A stretch of DNA of 64,000 nt from Camellia lanceoleosa (taxonomy: Eukaryota; Streptophyta; Magnoliopsida; Ericales; Theaceae): positions 63,706,009 to 63,770,008 of the forward strand of contig CM045761.1 of NCBI GenBank assembly GCA_025200525.1, read 5' to 3'. Under the pieces are notes generated by a model, which was given only the letters and a program-made list of their open reading frames with translations, was not told the origin of the DNA and ran no database searches. The translations under genes and the position numbers were made by a program. Shown piece after piece: positions 22,801 through 33,918 of the stretch; position 1 is the stretch's first letter; every line of letters starts with the position of its first letter.

Positions 22801-22895
22801 GGGAAATTTATTGATAAATCCCATTTAGAGATATTTTATCCCAATAAGTCCACAAAGAAAAATTATATCCCAATGAGTCCCATATAGTTTTTTTC
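22801..22895 (+). repeat. Left terminal inverted repeat of the MULE
   Basis: Imperfect inverted match to 33825-33918. Starts with G as usual for Mutator-like ends. The match falls off after about 90 bp. Confidence 0.7.
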
Positions 22896-22989
22896 TTATT
22901 CCATAAAGTCCAGTTTTTAAATTTCATATTTATATGTGGACTATTATGCCCTTATATACATATAGACTGTGTTAATACGTAATAAAACT

Positions 22990-23242
22990 TCCTGTGATCT
23001 CGGTATTCGATTTGGCGCTTTAGATTTCTAATTCAAATCGTTACGTTTCTACCTTGCATCTTTGTCGTTCCATCGCTCGAGGCGTTGATGTCCTAGGGTT
23101 TGATTGTTCTTTGTTCTAGTCGGTATGGCGATTCTCAAGTGAACAGGACGAAGTTGAAGGTGTTGATTCGTCATTTTCGGAGTATAAGCGTATCGGGCGC
23201 TTTTTTTCGAGTTTTGGTCGACTGTTGGATTGGATGATTAAG
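22990..23242 (+). other. Probable 5' UTR exon of the transposase gene
   Basis: A locally GC-richer stretch after the terminal repeat ends at ATTAAG|GTTAGT (donor at 23243). The matching acceptor TTTTTACAG ends at 24152, three bases before the start codon. The exon has no long frame, so it is likely untranslated leader. Its 5' limit is a guess. Confidence 0.5.
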
Positions 23243-24152
23243 GTTAGTATCAGTGTAGTTATGAATAGATGTTCAATTTTTATTTTGATTTGTAGGATGG
23301 ATCAGATCCTTTGTTATTGGATTGATATTTTTGGATGCTCTGTTTTTTCAATTACATCCATCATACGTGGTCATTGGAGGGGAGGTCATTCAGATATATG
23401 TTGAATGTTGTAATATTCCTTTTACTTTGATGTATGTATAATGAGGCCCTGTGTGAGTGATGTAATTCAGAGTATATTGAACAATGTGAATGTTAACATC
23501 ATGTTAGTATTACGTGAAGCATGTGGATGTAGATGTTTTATTTAATTTCTGTGAGCAGCATTGTCTGGACAAAAGAGTGATTGGTAAATTATAAGTAATG
23601 TGAAGATTGACATTAGTATGCACTGATGTGAAGGTTTACATATGTGTATGCTAATGACAGTCATGTGAACATTCACATTAGTACACACTGATGTGAATAT
23701 TCACATTAGTGTATACTAATGTTAGTTGATCGATTAATGAACAGTACTGTGAATGTTGACATTGTCAGTGACTCAACAATCAGCAATGAATTATTAATGG
23801 TCGTTAATGTGAATGTTCACATTGTTGATGTCGTTTTTTACATCGTGTTAGTATTACGCGAGGGGAGGTCATGAGATTACTGATGAATGTCGGTCTTCTA
23901 TAATTCAGAGTATGTGTCAATGTAAATGTTTACATCGTGTTCATATCATGTGAAGAATGTGGGTGTTTTCACTTTTACTTTGATGTTTGCTTAATGAGGC
24001 TTTTGTGTGGGTGTGAATATTCACATCTTGTTTAATGATGGTTGTTGAATTTAACAGTTGAACTGTACTTGTAAGCTGCTAATTCTTGCGCAATGTGAAT
24101 ATTCATATCGGTTTGGATTATTGTTAATTGTTGTATTGTTTTCTTTTTACAG
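23243..24152 (+). other. 5' UTR intron of the transposase gene, palindrome-rich
   Basis: GT..AG intron holding several TGTGAANNTTCACA motifs (for example near 23664, 23690, 23805 and 24005) and the 281-bp segment (23551-23831) that is repeated in the next intron of this gene. Confidence 0.55.
23551..23831 (+). repeat. 281-bp segment duplicated at 25261-25541, copy 1
   Basis: From GTGAGCAGCATTGTCTGGAC to ATTGTTGATGT it matches 25261-25541 without indels. I count 8 differences in 281 bp. Contains four near-palindromes. Lies in the 5' UTR intron. Confidence 0.9.
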
Positions 24153-27100
24153 GAGATGGATAGCTTCATGATGTTAGTGTGTACATATGGTTGTAGTACC
24201 ACTGTAGTAAATGCTGCCCCCGCATTGTGTTATTCGCGTTTGGTGGAATGTTTGTGTGAAAAGTGGGGGAAGTTGTCTGCTGGTTCTATTTCATTGTTTT
24301 GTAAATTACCTGGGATTAATAGGTGTGATTTGGAGAATGAGGAAGAATTTCAGAACATGTTATTGTTTGCTAAATCAATGGGGGTACAACATGTAGAAGT
24401 TGTGGTTGAGTTGAAAAGTGATATTGGTCAGTCAAGTAGTTTGGGATTGGTGCGTGTGGGGGTTGAGGAAGAAGTTGATGCACTACGGAGATTTTGCCAC
24501 CATAAGGAGAAGGTGTTGTTGTCAGCCCCTTGGGCGAATGGTATTACGCATGTGGGACAACGGTTTATTGGAGGTGCACAAGAATTTCGTGACGTTTTGT
24601 GTAAGTATGCCATCCAATGTGGGTTTCAATTTACATACGTGAAGAACGAGACAACAAGAGTTACTGCTGTGTGCGCGATGCGGGAGGAGAGGGGCTGCTT
24701 GTGGGCTATACATTGTAGAGCACAACGAGCAAATGATTTTTTCTACATCAAGAGTTTTAGTGACATGCATACTTGTGGTACGGATGTCCGAACATCGAAG
24801 AATCATGAGTTAGTTCGGATTTGGTGTCTAGTACCATATCCGAAATTGTGAGGGACAAGCATTGACTCGGCCGTGTGATGTGGTGACTATTTTGAAGAGG
24901 GATTATGGGCTAGATGTTAGTTACCATGTCGTATGGTTGGGTGTGGAGAAAGCAAAGGCTGCTATTCATGGAGAGCACTCGTTATCATTTGACCAGCTGC
25001 GGTGGTATTCGGATGCTGTGATGCGGTACAATCCAGGGAGTTATGTCAATATTGACTATGATGCGAGTAGTCAACGGTTTTGTCGCTTCTTTATGTCATT
25101 CGCTGCGTGTATTTCTGGGTTCAATGCTTGCCGGCCTTTATTATTCCTGGATGGAACATTCCTCAAAGGAAAGTACAAAGGTCAGCTACTTGCACAACCG
25201 AAAAGACGAAAACAATGGTTAGTATTCTTTTTTAGCTGTCTATTCATGTCAATATTCACTGTGAGCAGCATTGTCTGGACAAAAGAGTGATTGGTAAATT
25301 ATAAGTAATGTGAAGATTGACATTAGTATGCACTGATGTGAAGGTTTACATCTCTGTATGCTAATGATAGTCATGTGAACATTCATATTATTACACACTG
25401 ATGTGAATATTCACATTAGTGTATAGTAATGTTAGTTGATCCATTAATGAATAGTACTGTGAATGTTGACATTGTCAGTGACTCAACAATCAGCAATGAA
25501 TTATTAATGGTCGTTAATGTGAATGTTCACATTGTTGATGTTTACGAACTTCAATCCAAAAATCACAATAGTAAATAGGGCAATGTAGATATAAACATTC
25601 ACATGACTTGTTTGTTTATACTGTTTTCTATGCGCTTTGGAATATTGTGAACAGTTGTGTATTGGTGTTGTGTTGTAGGTTTGTTTCCTGTTGCCTTTGC
25701 GATTGTTGATTCAGAGACAACGGCGAATTGGTCGTGGTTCTTGCATGAACTTGGGAAGGTTGTTGATGGTAAACGCCATATTACTTTCATTTCGGATCGT
25801 AATCTTGGGCTGTTAGAAGCTATGCCAAAGGTGTTCCCATCGGCTCATCACGGTTATTGCTTACAACACTTGAAGAGCAATTTAAGAGACCGGATGAAAG
25901 GAATTGATAATGGATTCAAGGATCACCTAGTAAGTAGTTTGGGTGACTGTGCGTACGAGCCAACTGTGGTAGGGTTCCATGAAAAGCTTGCAAAATTAAA
26001 AGAGGAGGGTAAACAACGAGTTCATAATTTTTTCAAGGACTTGGCACCTGAGCATTGGGCAAATTCATACTTCAGGTAATAATAGTTTCCTAACATCTTT
26101 GTGAATTTTAGAATGGTAGCGATGTGAATTTTCGATTTAGAATGGTAACAATCTTCGAATTGTGTTTCATGTTCAATGTAAATGATGTGAATGTTCACAT
26201 CTGCTAACGATGACTGATGTGAATGTTCACATCTGTTTAAATTGTCAAATAGACGTGCAATGTATTACAGGTTTGAATGTTGACACGTGTCATATTTTGT
26301 TGTTGTGAACATTCACATATTGTCCATCGTTTAAGTTGACAACATAATAAGCATATGATGTGAACATTCACATTATTATAAACTGGTAGCAGATGTAAAC
26401 AGTAATATACCCTGATGTGAATGTTCACATCACTGTATTCTAATGTCAGTACTATGAATGTTCACATCTGTTAACGTTAATGGTCAGATCTCTTAAATTC
26501 CGTATTGTACAATGTTTGTGATATTGTGCAGGGGCATGCGTTATGGGGAGATGACATCCAATGCGGCGGAGTCATTCAATAACTGGATTAAAGAAGTACG
26601 TAATCTTCCTATCACTCAAATGGTGGACACAATTCGTACTCAGTTGATGCGGCAAATGTCTGCAAGGCGTGACCAAGCAAACAGATGGAACGAGATTATT
26701 TGTCCGACATTTGAAACAAGGCTTATGGATTCGTTCAATGACAGCAGGGCTTGGCAAGTTAGCAAAGCCAATGAGGATGTGTTTGAAGTTCATTCGATAC
26801 CATCTGTTACGCTTGATGTTTCGAGGCGACATGTTCTTGCTTCAAATGGCAAATCAACGGATTCCCATGTGACCATGTGTTATTGCCATTCAAGAGCCGC
26901 TATAATCTCAATGATTGTGTAGAACATTACTTTCATGTGGAGACGATCGTGCAGCCTATTCGGAGCCATATTCCCTATACCATCGGTGGAGAAGCCGCTT
27001 TTGATCCCACGGACTTCACTATATACCCGCCAACCGTGAAAAGACCACGGAAGGCCGAAGAAAAATAGGATCCCATCAAGGGGTGAGAAACTGAAGCAAA

Positions 27101-27166
27101 TAAGGTGCGGGAGATGTGATAAGTTGGGGAGTCATAATCGGAAGTCATGCACAGCGCCAATATAGG
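24153..27166 (+). pseudogene. MuDR-type (MULE) DDE transposase, frameshifted
   Basis: Catalyses excision and insertion in autonomous Mutator-like elements. Exons: 24153-25217 (ATG at 24156), 25679-26075 and 26532-27166, joined by GT-AG introns whose phases restore the family reading (N|GLFPVAFAIVD; YF|RGMRYGE). Visible parts: N-terminal MuDR region; LLFLDGTFLKGKYKG with the first catalytic Asp (codon at 25150); ISDRN with the second Asp (25795); HGYCLQHLKSN; AAESFNNW with the Glu (26569); SWIM finger CSCFKWQ..PCDH (26832-26876); C-terminal zinc knuckle CGRC..H..C (27106-27151). Broken by frameshifts near 24819, 24859, 25190-25215, 26830 and 27065, so no full protein can be made. The final stop is at 27164. 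Confidence 0.9.
25261..25541 (+). repeat. 281-bp segment duplicated from 23551-23831, copy 2
   Basis: Same orientation, exactly 1710 bp downstream of copy 1, inside the intron at 25218-25678. It starts 43 bp after the donor site and ends well before the acceptor, so splicing signals were spared. Confidence 0.9.
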
Positions 27167-27169
27167 ATG

Positions 27170-28370
27170 TACCTTTTTTCTATTTCAACATTGTATTTTA
27201 CATTGGATTCTTATATTCATTTTTGAAATAAGATTGTGTTGTGTTGGCAAACATTGGGTTGCAATAAGATTACGTTGCGTTGGCAAATATTATAATGCAT
27301 TAGTATGTGATTTGTGTTTTTTTTTCACTTTTTTAAGGTACCAATTTGACATTTTTGTTGGTTGTGTTTTGGATGAATGCATGATGTCAACATTAACACA
27401 GGTGTAATATAATCACATTATGTGAATGTTCACATTGTTGATCTTTCAAACATTTCTGTGATGGGAATGTTTACATTATTGTTACTGTTGACAGTATTGA
27501 AGTAGATGACATTAGTGTTTACATCAATGTAAACATTCACATCATCAACTCATAAGATCTAAATATTCATGACATCGTTGTCGCCATTCAGATAATCAGA
27601 AATTATGATGTGAATATTCACATTTATGTAAACGAATCATATTATGTCAAAAGTTGCACATGGGTTGAACTTCTTTACCTTTTTGTTGTCAATGTTGACA
27701 TGAATATAAGCTGTTAACATAAGTTAGTATGAACATTCACATCAGTGTTGCAACTGTGAACATTCACATCTTTCAAACAATAGCGCAAATGAATATCATA
27801 AGTGAATGTTCACATTTGGCAGACATTAGTGCAAGAATTATGCTCATCACAACATAGCATTACGAATGTGATAAGTGACTATGTACATTCAGAGCAGTGT
27901 TGCAACTGTGAACATTCACATCTGTAAAGATTACTGCATATGAATGTCATAATTGAATGTTCACATATAGCAGACATGAATGACATTTACAACTGTTATG
28001 AGCAAGAACAGATGTGAATGTTCGCACATGTGTAAGTGATCCGTAATGATGTCATGTAGACCAAGTGTACACTCCTTCACAAAGTATGTGTATTATAGAA
28101 CACTCAGGTTCAAACATTCGCATGAATTACACTCATAACAACACAGCATTATGGATATCGTAAGTGAATGTGAACATTCACATCATTCACATCTGTAAAG
28201 CATAACAACACCAAAAGTAGTTAAAAATTCCCAGCTGGCTTTTTCCCATTAATAGATGTTGTATCAATGTTTTACAATTAGTTGTTGTGTCAAAATGTTA
28301 ACGCAATCCATACTAACATTCATATCGAGTCTTGCTTAGTTTGTAGGTGGACACCCCCCACCTATAGGTT
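27170..28370. repeat. Intergenic palindrome field between the convergent MULE genes
   Basis: Between the stop codons of the transposase (+) and the ULP1-like gene (-). At least a dozen copies of TGTGAACATTCACA / TGTGAATGTTCACA or one-off variants lie here (for example near 27422, 27608, 27756, 27802, 27908, 28010 and 28170), spaced irregularly at 30-110 bp in otherwise unremarkable AT-rich DNA. No gene. Confidence 0.85.
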
Positions 28371-28779
28371 TTAATGAAGCTCTGATTTCTTATGATTCAA
28401 AAAACTATGCACTAACAAATCTCGTAGTCCACACCATTCTGAACTAGTGAGGCTGCCCACAACTTCTTCATGGAATATGTGCGCCCGCATGATGTAACAT
28501 ACTGCAGGTCCACAGTCCACTCTGTAAAAAAGAAATGGTTTTGATTAGCAGTTGACATGAATATTTGCATAATTGTTATGGAGGGTTTGTAAAAAATGTA
28601 TTGAGGATTACGAGTCCTGCGTTGTTGAGGAGACTTCCACACCTGCTGATTGGTCAGGCCGATTTTGGCCTTGTAGCTTAGTGTGTAGGGGTGATGACTC
28701 GCCAATAACGCCACAACATGCTCAATATACTTCCTCTGTATGGTATTTCAAATTAGGTACCAACAAACATTAGTGTGTG

Positions 28780-29050
28780 TATAGTCATGTAGATGTCAAC
28801 ATTCACAGTAGTATGTACTGAATGAATGTGAACATTCACATCACTGGTTCAGATGTGAACATTCACATCTGTGAAACATAGGTGAAGTGGCAGTGTTGTG
28901 AACATTCAGAGTAGTAGATTATGAGTGCATGTGAACATTCACATCACTGATTAAGATGTGAACATTCACATCTGTGAAACATAGGTGAAGTGGCAGTGTT
29001 GTGAACATTCACATATGTGGAACTGTTTTGAACATTCACAGCAGTATATT
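28780..29050. repeat. 103-bp repeat array 1 (in a ULP-gene intron)
   Basis: Units start TGTGAACATTCACATCACTG at 28827 and 28930. Each contains a second palindrome, then GAAACATAGGTGAAGTGGCA and a third palindrome after GTGT. Lies in the intron between exons 29292-29074 and 28642-28612. Nearly the same unit recurs at 30960-31300. Confidence 0.85.
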
Positions 29051-30959
29051 TGTGTTCAAAAATAGCCACTTACAACTTCCAGTGCTTGGTCGATATGCGG
29101 GTCATGTATTCCTGTTCTTGGGCGCAACGAGTTGTAATGCCTCCACAAATTGTCTTTAGCATCATACACAACTATCGTCCAGTGGTACTCATGATGCAAT
29201 GGGAATAGTAGGTATCTCTCTCCTTTGTAGTTCTTGACATGTGCATCAATGTGTTTACTCCTTTTGCGAGGATGGTACTCTCGTATCACTTTCTGTACAG
29301 ATTGGACAAATAATTAATGGTCTGTGAAGTTTCACATTTGCAGTACAAATAGGTAATGGACTGTGAAGTTCCACATTCACATTACAAATAATGGAATGAT
29401 AGGTTACCAAACACAAGCTTGTGAATATGAATGCCGCTTCATCCGAAGTTGGGTTGACCACCTCTTGTTGTTCATGCAACAGTTCAGCATATGCATCTAT
29501 GAGCTGCACAAACATGGGGTCATATTATATAGATTTGTGGCTGTGAGTGTGTCTGTTTCTGTGTGCATATGCATGAAGAGCTAATTATGTTTGTTATGGC
29601 ATACATTGCTATGTATTGATTCCTCCTTGATAATGTTGACAATGTCATCAAAATACACATGTGTAGCCTTTGAATCTCCTTTCCACACCAGCAGCCTGTG
29701 CATTATAAACAAACCAATGTGAATATTTACATTGCACAGATCTGAACAAACCAGAAAATTGAACACAGTGATGATTATAGACAATTACGGAATGTGAATG
29801 TTAACATTAGATGTATGCAGAGTCACTTACTCATCGCCTCCAGTTTTTTGTAAAGCTTGGACCTTTTGTTTGTCTTGTTTGGACATCTTGCTCCACACTT
29901 TGAACTTGTTGGTCAAGGATAATTTTTTTAGCTGCTTCGCTGGTGGGTGTTTCTCCACATCTTCAACCATTTCGACTGGATGGGGTTGCTTTTGGCCCGA
30001 AGTCTGGCATCGAATTCAGGCAAGCGATGCTCTTTGCGATCTTTTTCCTTTATACGCTTGACCCTAGAAGGTGGGCTGATATTGTGTTCCATTGGGCTAG
30101 GGGGTTGCTTTTCTGCCACAGCCTGTGTGACAATGTGGACTGACTGGTCATCGTAAAGATCTTGAAGAAGTGTTTTATCGCATTCCAAGTCAATGACCAC
30201 CGCTAAGCGTTTGATTTCTTCATCCTTCTGCTGCATGCACTTCTGTATTTCGGTATTTATGTTGGGTGGGCTGGACTGGTTGAACAATTTATGTTCAAGA
30301 TCAGCTATGACTCTTGCCCTTAATTCCCACGAAAATTGAAGTTGTTTGTACTTGGCTTCCCATTGCCTTACGACGCCCCAGGCCTTCCGATTTTCTTTGA
30401 TTAACATGTCAATCAAATCAGGTTGGTTTGTGTTTGGTATTACAATAGATGTGTCATAATGTTGGCTGCTAAATGGAATGTGAATGTCCTCATCACTGTC
30501 CTGTTGCTCAACCCCATCCCCAGAAAAGTCAGAGTTGGTGCCATTGTGTTTTTCATCCTTGATGTCAAAGGGGTTGGGAGATGTTGTGTCTGGTTCAGAA
30601 ATTTCAAGCTCGACCTTCAATGTTTTATGCTTGAACTTTTGTATTTCTGATGGGATTGCAAAGAGTTCACCGGCATTAACCTGACAATGGAAAAAACAGG
30701 TTATGTAACGTATATATTTGAGTGGTGTTATAATGTGAATGTTTTGTTCAGCAGTTGAAGGCCCTACTTCATTAAAACCCAAATCTGCTAAAGAGGTGGT
30801 TCTCATCTTCTTCTGTAAAGCAGTCAGATCCCACTTCACACACCGTGGAAAAGCATTGGGTTTGTGAGGTTGTAGGATGGTTGTGTGCTCACACAACCAA
30901 TACTTCAGTAAAACAACAAACATAGTGTTATTTAGGAATTGAATAGTAATGTCATGAGT

Positions 30960-31300
30960 AGATATGAGTAGATGTGAACATTCACAGTAGTATGTTATGA
31001 GTGGATGTGAACATTCACAACACTGGTTCAGATGTGAACATTCACATCAGTGAAACATAGGTGAAGTGGCAGTGTTGTGAACATTCACAGTAGTATGTTA
31101 TGAGTGGATGTGAACATTCACATCACTGGTTCAGATGTGAACATTCACATCTGTGAAACATAGGTGACGTGGCAGTGTTGTGAACATTCACATCTGTGGA
31201 ACTATTTTGAACATTCACAGCAGTATAGTATGAGTGAATGTGAACATTCACATCAGTGATTCAGATGTGGACATTCACATCTGTCAAAGGTAATTGCCTA
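30960..31300. repeat. 103-bp repeat array 2 (in another ULP-gene intron)
   Basis: Units start TGTGAACATTCACA at 31006 and 31109 (103 bp apart), with a looser third unit at 31239. GAAACATAGGTGAAGTGGCA is shared with array 1. Lies in the intron between exon 32141-31405 and the exon near 30925. Confidence 0.85.
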
Positions 31301-32144
31301 TGGACATTCACATCAATGGTACATATATGAATGTTTACAGTTGGCTTAGATGCACAACACTGAAGGACATGTGAATGTTATTATTTGAGAACATAGGTAC
31401 TTACCATCAATAACATGACACAGCCGGTTACTTTTGCTGGATTTTTGTCGTTTTGGGAAATAGACGATGTCAACGTTGTTATAATTTGCTTAGCCCAGTC
31501 ATATTCTCGCATGGTTTCCAATGGAACCATATGTGTGTAGTAGCCCCATCCTATCGCCTCTCCACTTTTGTGAAAAAGCTTTTGGCAAGCATACATGCAC
31601 ACTAGTCCGCAACTTCTTCGTTGTCAGCTTTCTTTTTGCCTTTCAACGCCTCGGTCAAAAGTGTGCGTATCCATTTTGATGTCAACCGGCTGACATTTTT
31701 GCATATTTTGTTTACAATGCCAGTCCTTGGTTTCGCACCGTACGATATGTCCATCGGCTTGCTGCCACAGTCCACACCAAAAATCAGCTTGATGTCGCTG
31801 TTGTGTATGCTCATCTTTTTCTTCCCAATGTAGAATGCATCCTTTGAAGCTCTGTACATTTGTAGTACATGCACAACGACGTCATCATATTTCATGCATT
31901 TGTCCAGGTCAATCTGATTGTTTCTTAATGCATCAAGCAAATTCCAAAATGGTGTTTGTTGAAGGCACCGCAATTGCTTGTGTGAACTTGGTGGTTTTCA
32001 TGAATTTGACCAGTCCGGTCATATTAGATCTGTAGTTCACATTTTTCATGTCCACATTGGTGCTAGGATTTGTTTTTGGGGTTTCTTCCTTCACATGGTA
32101 CTCATCTCTCTTCCTCTTTCCTGTTTTCTTGTGTGCAACATCTG

Positions 32145-33478
32145 CAAAATGGAGCGCTTTAAAAAATTAAGTCCACGCCATGTGATTAGCGTAATGGAAC
32201 AGATGTGAACATTCACAGCATGTTGATTGGGTCAGCACAAACACAATGTGCATATTGTGTCACTGTGTGGAAAACAATGTATTTTTATACAACCATGAAC
32301 ACCATTGAATAACATGTGCATGTTAACACGAACATATAAAATGCCGGATCAACTTATTGGATCACCATTAACAATCAAGAATATGAACAAGGCAAACATT
32401 CACAATAGGGGGAAAAAATCTAAATATCCCTAGTCATTGGCCTAATGTTTGCAATCCATGTGAATGTTCACAGCGTAGAATAACAGTAACAATAATATCT
32501 GATTGTCCTAAAATCTACTAAAATGTTCAGGCAATGTGAATGTTCACAGCTTAGACCAAACTCACCAACAATATCTGATTGTAGTAAAATGTTCAGGCAA
32601 TGTGATTGTTCACAGTCTAGAACAACATCACCAATAATATTTGACTCTCCTAAAATGTTTAGGAAATGCCAATGTTCACAGCCTAGAGCGAACACACCAA
32701 CAGTATCTGATTGATCTAAAATGTTCAGGCAATGTGAATGTTCACAGCCTAGAACGACAGCACGAACAATATCTGACTCTACTAAATTTTCCCGGCAATG
32801 TCAATGTTGATAGCATAGAACAACAGGACCAGTAATATCTGACTCTCCTAAAAGTATCAGGCAATGTGAATGTTCACAGCCAATAACAAAAGGACCAATA
32901 ATATTTGATTCTACTAAAATTAGCAGGCAATGTGAATGTTCACATCTTCCATCAACAATAACAGCAACAGAATTGGCCAAACATTTTGCAATCCACAAGA
33001 ATGTTCACATCATAAAACAACAACACCATAACTACCTGATTATCCAAATTTTTTAACTCAATGTGAATGTTCACATTTTTAATCAACTACAACAAAACAG
33101 AATTGGCCAAAACATTTTGAAACCGTGTGAATGTTCACAACAGTGAACAACAACCGTATAACATCTGCAATAATATGACTATCAAACCATTTTCAATCAA
33201 TGTGAATGTTCGCATATTGCAATAACAACGACTACAACAAAAACATTTTCGAATGTTCACAGTTGTGAACACAATGTAATGCAACTGTAATGTTTTTTAC
33301 TTCAAAGATCAATAAGATTAAGGATTATCATGGAGGGGTTCAGAATAAATGTTAGGTTATGAACAATATGGACTCCTATATATTGTACGATACGAAAATG
33401 GATATTTGTCGAGTTCGTAATAATGGTTGTTGATAAACGTGATTAGGGTTTAAATACACGAATGAGTAGATTGCTTAC
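32145..33478 (-). other. Probable long first intron of the ULP-like gene
   Basis: Donor GC|GTAAGCAA at 33478 and acceptor ATTTTGCAG at 32142. Besides the 66-bp array it holds further irregularly spaced motifs at about 32207, 32459, 33003, 33060, 33127, 33200 and 33250. The phase across this splice does not fit the next exon exactly, so either another small exon or a further frameshift is missed. Confidence 0.45.
32520..32960. repeat. 66-bp tandem array with one near-palindrome per unit
   Basis: The motif TGTGAATGTTCACA or a variant starts at 32535, 32601, 32667, 32733, 32799, 32865 and 32931, exactly 66 bp apart each time. The units share CAGGCA before the motif, GCCTAGAAC after it, and AATATCTGACTCTCCTAAAA between. 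Lies in the long first intron of the ULP-like gene. Because 66 is divisible by 3, a periodic 22-residue frame (CEHSHCLNIL..) stays open on the minus strand, broken by a single stop near 32800. Confidence 0.9.
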
Positions 33479-33492
33479 GCTTTTGTGCCCAT

Positions 33493-33824
33493 TTCGACGA
33501 AAAGATGTTCGCATCGGCGACGATGCGACGATATTAACGGCGTATGAACGACGCAGAAGATGTTCAGACGATGTGACAATGGAACGAAGACAATCTTCTC
33601 GACGTAGGGACGAAGGAGAAGATCAATGAGATGATGCGCAGATGCTACGTTGGAAGGAATACAGATTTGTGGGAGTTGAGGGGATGTGGAATGTGGGTTT
33701 CGATTTCTAGACTGTAAATGTACTGTGCGTGATTTCCTGCGCAAGAATAGAGAGGGTAAGAGAGACGGTTATGAGATTCAAAGAGAGAGAGAAAGGCGCG
33801 TGTTTTGTTAGGGATGTTTTGGTC
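33493..33824 (-). promoter_or_regulatory. Presumed promoter and 5' leader of the ULP-like gene
   Basis: Minus-strand sequence between the right terminal repeat and the start ATG at 33492. It has a TCTCTCTCTCTTT tract and a locally GC-richer leader with GTCGTC words, resembling the leader of the transposase gene at the opposite end. Each gene thus reads inward from a terminal repeat. Confidence 0.45.
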
Positions 33825-33918
33825 TTTCTGTATGAAATGGACCTAATGGAATATTATAAAACACTATGGGTTTTATGGAACAACACTCTTAAATAATGGA
33901 TTTACTAAAAAAGCTCCC
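33825..33918 (-). repeat. Right terminal inverted repeat of the MULE
   Basis: Reverse complement begins GGGAGCTTTTTTAGTAAATC and follows the left repeat with scattered differences and small indels. Confidence 0.7.

Follow-up and report, generated by a model that had tools for sequence, protein, structure and literature searches.

The question raised by this locus is why a single transposon should be carpeted with copies of one palindrome and which protein would read them. In the window, that is the whole 64-kb stretch of DNA that was analysed, all 38 exact copies of TGTGAANNTTCACA lie within 23664-33139, inside one MULE, and none was found in the other 52,882 bases, which bears out the original prediction that the motif is confined to the element. 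The excess over shuffled DNA is equally clear, with a mean of 0.01 and a maximum of one copy in 300 dinucleotide shuffles of the element. When up to one mismatch is allowed, 62 sites are found inside the element and one elsewhere in the window; this sole outlying copy, TGTAAATATTCACA, occupies positions 287-300.

The element, its genes and its motif arrays

The whole element spans positions 22801..33918 (11,118 bp; no strand assigned), with TIRs that are short and degenerate. These limits, initially proposed for this one copy, could be upheld because each end recurs in other elements of the genome. The 9-bp target duplication is imperfect in the window copy, where 6 of 9 bases match (CCCTTTAAA / TTTTTTAAA). 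Among the seven elements with both ends placed, this one included, a duplication of about 9 bp is complete (9/9) in L005, L009 and one L014 element, and reaches 8/9 in L010, 7/9 in the other L014 element and 4/9 in L007. In addition, the ORF list shows the reading frame to be broken in both genes of the window copy, and so, given also its imperfect target duplication, this copy looks degenerate.

The transposase gene (24153..27068, plus strand), placed from Pfam domains and ORFs, has coding exons at approximately 24153-25215, 25678-26074 and 26532-27068. Its product scores above the Pfam cut-off for DBD_Tnp_Mut (45.6 bits), MULE (48.7 bits) and SWIM (29.1 bits), and a transposase with DDE, SWIM and MuDR DNA-binding domains identifies the element, as judged from its sequence, as a MULE. 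The VANC-like (ULP-like) gene (28412..33493, minus strand) is convergent with the transposase gene; it was placed from ORFs, its exon limits are approximate and its 3' part is uncertain, and pieces of its exons were found again in the clade B loci described below. The gene model for the window is approximate, with splice sites judged by eye, and marks 4,287 of 11,118 bases as coding.

By this approximate gene model, none of the 38 exact and none of the 62 one-mismatch sites overlaps an exon, in keeping with the first impression that exons are free of the motif, and one of the 76 two-mismatch sites touches an exon, at 30479. The proposed spread over distinct non-coding blocks was also recovered, with four exact sites in the 5'UTR intron (23664..24025), two in transposase intron 1 (25402..25531), five in transposase intron 2 (26186..26429) and five in the gap between the convergent genes (27421..28182). 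Non-coding blocks of the ULP-like gene account for the rest of the 38: five sites in a 103-bp tandem repeat (28827..29013), a single GT-centred site in a small intron (29323..29336), eight in a further array of the 103-bp repeat (30973..31252) and eight in the first intron (32204..33139), which is in part a 66-bp tandem repeat. None of these arrays was assigned a strand. The first exact site lies 863 bases from one end of the element and the last 779 bases from the other, and the terminal 0.7-0.8 kb of the window copy is without the motif. A 283-bp block of the 5'UTR intron (23548-23830) is 97% identical to a part of transposase intron 1 that includes its array (25259-25541), which suggests that motif arrays have spread by dispersed copying or conversion too.

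The centres of the exact sites are CA (20), TG (13), TA (4) and GT (1). The CA-centred motif contains neither a CG nor a CHG site, and therefore such methylation inside the motif could not block binding, a point made as a remark and not as evidence. With every distance counted a single time, motif spacing showed no clear periodicity around 10.5 bp.

Other copies and non-coding derivatives

A search with the DUF exon of the VANC-like gene gave 3127 candidates. Among the best 150, 127 are 68-100% identical (clade A, window copy included) and 23 are 58-61% identical (clade B); in other copies this exon is open for up to approximately 270 codons or more. In each of 30 clade-A loci, that of the window among them, 9-18 exact motifs were counted, against 0 in the reversed control, and six of the 23 clade-B loci hold 19-27 each, so that the motif is present in 35 of 35 other loci (29 of clade A and 6 of clade B). 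Coding sequence contains 0 of the 435 exact motifs in the 29 clade-A loci (window excluded) and 0 of the 135 in the six clade-B loci, with 42,536 of 97,866 and 12,839 of 35,006 bases marked as coding, respectively.

The tandem repeats that carry the motif have units of 66 and 103 bp in the window (clade A) and of 40–41 and 205 bp in two clade-B loci. Between repeat units the per-base difference is 0.02-0.10 for the motif and 0.18-0.27 for its flanks (lags with more than three pairs; the pairs are not independent). The resulting motif/flank divergence ratio within repeats is 0.09-0.37, for which the neutral expectation is 0.5 or more because one copy of each pair was required to be exact. Moreover, 31 12-mers occur in at least half of the non-coding DNA of both clades and are mostly pieces of the motif, with a few exceptions such as TCACCATTAACA, in a comparison where the clade-A coding mask also covered some translated intron. 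The consensus dyad of the clade-B sites reaches to about CTGATGTGAATGTTCACATCAG. Double changes at mirror positions preserve pairing in 13 of 193 cases, against approximately 6 expected under a naive null.

Across the 3.0-Gb assembly, in whose contig 4 the window lies, TGTGAANNTTCACA has 34,402 sites, a total not split by centre dinucleotide (e.g. TGTGAATATTCACA), against 1,215 for the reversed-pattern control (∼28-fold). The motif is therefore not equally common in exons or in the reversed control, and the original prediction of an element-specific carpet stands; the carpet is not peculiar to this copy but common to a whole clade, with sites in the tens of thousands.

Of the 34,402 sites, the first 50, all on contig 1, fall into 10 regions. 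Each of these 50 sits in a related element or fragment, and the motif is kept in non-coding derivatives, down to small MITE-like ones. L008 and L011 (12 sites) have DUF1985-like exons about half identical to the window exon. The elements of L005, L007, L009, L010 and L014 (two elements) are 1.3-3.1 kb long and gave no match to the window exon pieces, and their ends resemble those of the window element, either directly or via one another. L006, L012 and L013 hold small elements of ∼300-400 bp (approximate limits) in which end-like sequence surrounds a short run of 2 to 5 motifs, exact or near, at intervals of 21-22 bp, and spacings of 20-22 bp are recurrent in the small derivatives. The terminal sequence common to all derivatives is without the motif. 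The MITE-like small elements were observed at L006 4788-4886, L012 4907-4942 and L013 4914-4970, and in the non-coding derivatives L005, L009 and L010 the motifs are mostly TA-centred, with many near-motif pairs 20 bp apart.

A search with the left end of the element gave 1575 candidates, of which the 40 scored, including that of the window itself, are 97-100% identical. For at least 21 of these 40 left ends a clade-A DUF exon lies at a distance of 8.6-9.3 kb, as judged by comparison with 49 of the 150 DUF matches. Two left ends of the family lie 342 bp apart in opposite orientation (G000 C6:114130262 and 114130604).

The VANC-like protein and a second palindrome

The DUF exon (31404..32141, minus strand) encodes a DUF1985/PMD-like domain, the predicted DNA-binding part of the protein, as judged from the exon search, the alignment with clade C and the fold match of homologues. 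Clade C passes the Pfam cut-off for DUF1985 (PF09331), and clades A and B fall below Pfam cut-offs but are homologous to clade C. The VANC-like gene of the window is homologous to Camellia proteins such as P0047, and every relative with a source name comes from Camellia sinensis or C. fascicularis, which points to a Camellia, most likely tea, as the host. Relatives of the minus-strand gene have a DUF1985/PMD-like domain, long helices and a Ulp1-like end. VANC21 (PDB 9lnj, DNA-bound) ranks first in both structure lists obtained with the predicted folds of the homologues P0047 and P0003; VANC21 was not among the matches when PDB chains were searched with the sequences of VANC-like proteins. Sequence and predicted fold thus indicate that the element encodes a putative VANC protein of the DUF1985 type.

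The exon with the Ulp1-like catalytic His region (29073..29306, minus strand) scores 15.9 bits against PF02902, below the cut-off of 20.7, and the clade C homologue is just over it (21.8 bits). This stretch reads HW...YNS both in the window and in clade C; the catalytic Asp of Ulp1 proteases is expected at the position of the Asn. Weak repeated matches to PF08299 (DnaA-type helix-turn-helix), below the cut-off, were seen in P0047 (167-202), P0045 and other proteins of clades A, B and E.

The Pfam DUF1985 profile gave 732 candidates, and the best 150 comprise at least 66 places, 30 of them over the cut-off (three only with neighbouring matches). Five places were read as clade C and labelled L051-L056 (L053 lies inside L055). 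In these loci TGTGAANNTTCACA was not found at up to one mismatch; with two mismatches, L051-54 hold 6 copies (2.2 in shuffles) and L055-56 hold 4 (3.5 in shuffles). Clade C carries GATAAATTTATC, with 4 exact cores in L051-54 and 9 in L055-56 against 0.0 in each case (L053 being counted twice), and no exact core of GATAAATTTATC was found in clades A and B. The clade-C dyad around the core is approximately CAGTGATAAATTTATCACTG, with one arm mostly imperfect; near-full dyads were seen, and one exact 18-base dyad is present in L056. An earlier guess at this palindrome, GTGATAAATTTATCAC, was dropped when exact copies proved absent from the first four loci, and two longer loci served to redefine the motif. 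In L055 and L056 the stretches marked as coding overlap 0 of 22 copies of ATAAATTTATCA and 3 of 49 copies of the short GATAAATT. Genome-wide, ATAAATTTATCACTG has 2,650 occurrences and its control 8; at least 9 pairs overlap as full dyads among the 100 matches listed. The element ends (22811-22821 and the ends of relatives) contain TTGATAAATC, which resembles the clade-C half GATAAATT, possibly by chance.

The motif architecture is GTGA-N4-TCAC in clades A and B and GTGA-N8-TCAC in clade C, and such a difference is expected of VANC/VANDAL-type systems with clade-specific motifs. A protein tree built from 25 loci together with 6 named or public proteins places A and B in a single supported group, and the density of exact motifs is 2.7-5.3 per kb in the 18 loci of this group. 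In clades E (L057) and F (L058), with one locus each, it is 0.2 per kb; their near copies (up to one mismatch) are above chance, with 3 against 0.2 in E and 6 against 0.1 in F. Clade D (L008 and L011; absent from the tree) has 12 exact motifs with varied centres in 19.8 kb. Clade E genes contain two DUF1985-like copies ∼1.16 kb apart (G000 C3:7659021 and 7660178; C15:71535180 and 71534018 (L057); protein P0045).

A candidate reader and its known counterparts

The likely reader of the motif is the VANC-like protein that the element itself encodes in its minus-strand ULP-like gene and that would lift the silencing of its own family. The protein would bind many sites in the family's non-coding DNA (introns, intergenic gap and non-coding derivatives), and binding would lead to loss of DNA methylation over these copies and, in turn, to their expression and mobility. 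Specificity would arise from high site density, and site number would grow by tandem and dispersed duplication, with selection preserving the motif. The distribution of the motif, its sharing across repeat backgrounds, its slow change, the replacement palindrome of clade C and the predicted VANC21-like fold were computed here. The anatomy of the Camellia element is the same as that of VANDAL21, and on this ground we infer that the VANC-like protein binds the palindrome and lifts silencing; loss of methylation, mobility of the copies and a part played by the Ulp1-like end, if any, are put forward for Camellia on the same tentative footing. Binding would probably be as a dimer, given the dyad, the long helices and the mild excess of mirror-complementary double changes.

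The original prediction had named a dimeric protein such as the transposase, or an action on chromatin or RNA. The dyad does suit a dimeric, element-encoded protein and an action on chromatin; the transposase, however, is probably the wrong reader in view of the VANC21-like predicted fold and the VANC21 precedent. Binding by the MULE transposase, for transposition or self-regulation, would be natural for a protein that is encoded in the same element and has a MuDR-type DNA-binding domain, and the transposase and the VANC-like gene have linked lineages; because both genes travel together, the protein tree does not separate the two roles. However, the motif is missing from the terminal 0.7-0.8 kb of the window copy and from the shared derivative termini, where a transposase must act, and the known precedent for interior arrays is VANC. 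The motif-free ends and the Arabidopsis precedent thus point to the VANC-like protein, and we consider the transposase a very improbable reader. Transposons can also carry sites for host factors, so a host transcription or silencing factor might be the reader, but within this host the remote DUF1985 clade C is without the motif and has a palindrome of its own. Element-encoded readers fit this better than one shared host reader, which makes the latter very improbable.

That the carpet is a functionless by-product of tandem-repeat growth could be argued from the many sites that fall within 66, 103, 40–41 or 205 bp repeats and from the blocks copied between introns. Such growth hardly explains a motif that changes at 0.09-0.37 of the flank rate within repeats, recurs in clades whose repeat units differ, does not occur in coding sequence and is retained in small derivatives, and there is very little to commend this possibility. 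It is just as hard to credit that the palindrome works in RNA, as hairpins or small-RNA precursors. The motif is an inverted repeat and the pairing-preserving double changes exceed the naive expectation, but it is also present in intergenic and non-coding derivative DNA besides introns, it is sequence and not pairing that is conserved, the arms would leave a two-base loop, and the symmetry is accounted for just as well by a dimeric protein.

If the VANC-like protein is the reader, a more elaborate and rather doubtful extension is that Camellia VANC-like proteins are coiled-coil homodimers on long dyad operators, unlike the directional 9-bp reading of VANC21, and that lineages switched specificity with the outer arms GTGA...TCAC kept; a change in half-site spacing may then have made mutually blind anti-silencing systems in one genome.

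Whatever the mode of binding, the motif marks the genome copies on which one anti-silencer could act, and the findings point to sequence-specific anti-silencing, encoded by a transposon, in a crop with a large genome that is remote from Arabidopsis. The two candidate reader/motif pairs are testable against each other, and dyad motifs together with a natural clade switch could reveal how the target of a VANC protein changes. Searches of one open-access library turned up no previous account of these motifs, and the motif letters were met there in unrelated papers; the survey of Sasaki 2022, said to cover eudicots and to be relevant to motif novelty, lay outside this comparison. A meeting report mentions unpublished VANC-DNA structures and the change of VANC targets as an active question (PMC12859917).

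The original prediction knew of no description of such a carpet, but carpets of other motifs have been described for Arabidopsis VANDALs (PMC5735166). According to a review, KIU-type VANDALs recognise their own motifs in non-coding DNA, Kaonashi/KIU elements have a VANC-type gene with a Ulp1 domain, to which the Ulp1-like end of the Camellia gene may correspond, and the ULP1-bearing MULEs of melon, rice and grapevine, alike in carrying a Ulp1-like gene, are presented, as far as that description goes, with no motif carpet (PMC13317346). VANC6 has been linked to the VANDAL6/8 motifs AGTTGTCC and AGTTGTAC in transgene tests (PMC5735166). It provides a second reader and a second motif in one genome, like the candidate pairs of Camellia clades A/B and C, although the motifs are others and the transgene tests were made in Arabidopsis. 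VANC21 occupies YAGTATTAY sites in the non-coding DNA of VANDAL21 (Hiun) in Arabidopsis, binds them in vitro and is associated with a loss of methylation that is local for CG and wider for non-CG sites, and the VANC21 and VANC6 motif sets are often in tandem repeats (PMC5735166). VANDAL21 is the closely matching case: a MULE-encoded DUF1985 protein, a dense short motif across the introns, intergenic DNA and non-coding termini of the protein's own family, tandem repeats, exons free of the motif, and a DNA-bound VANC21 structure matched by the predicted Camellia fold. Indeed, a family-specific, dense, short motif in non-coding and not in coding DNA, often in tandem repeats, was found here as in VANC/VANDAL-type systems. 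The VANDAL21 motif differs in being 9 bp long and directional, with arrays in one orientation, whereas the Camellia motif is a dyad of 14 bp or longer; furthermore, binding and methylation loss are experimental for VANC21, whereas the Camellia counterpart is deduced from sequence and predicted fold. Overall, the kind of system is known, and the Camellia motifs, their dyad symmetry and their scale seem, provisionally, to be new.
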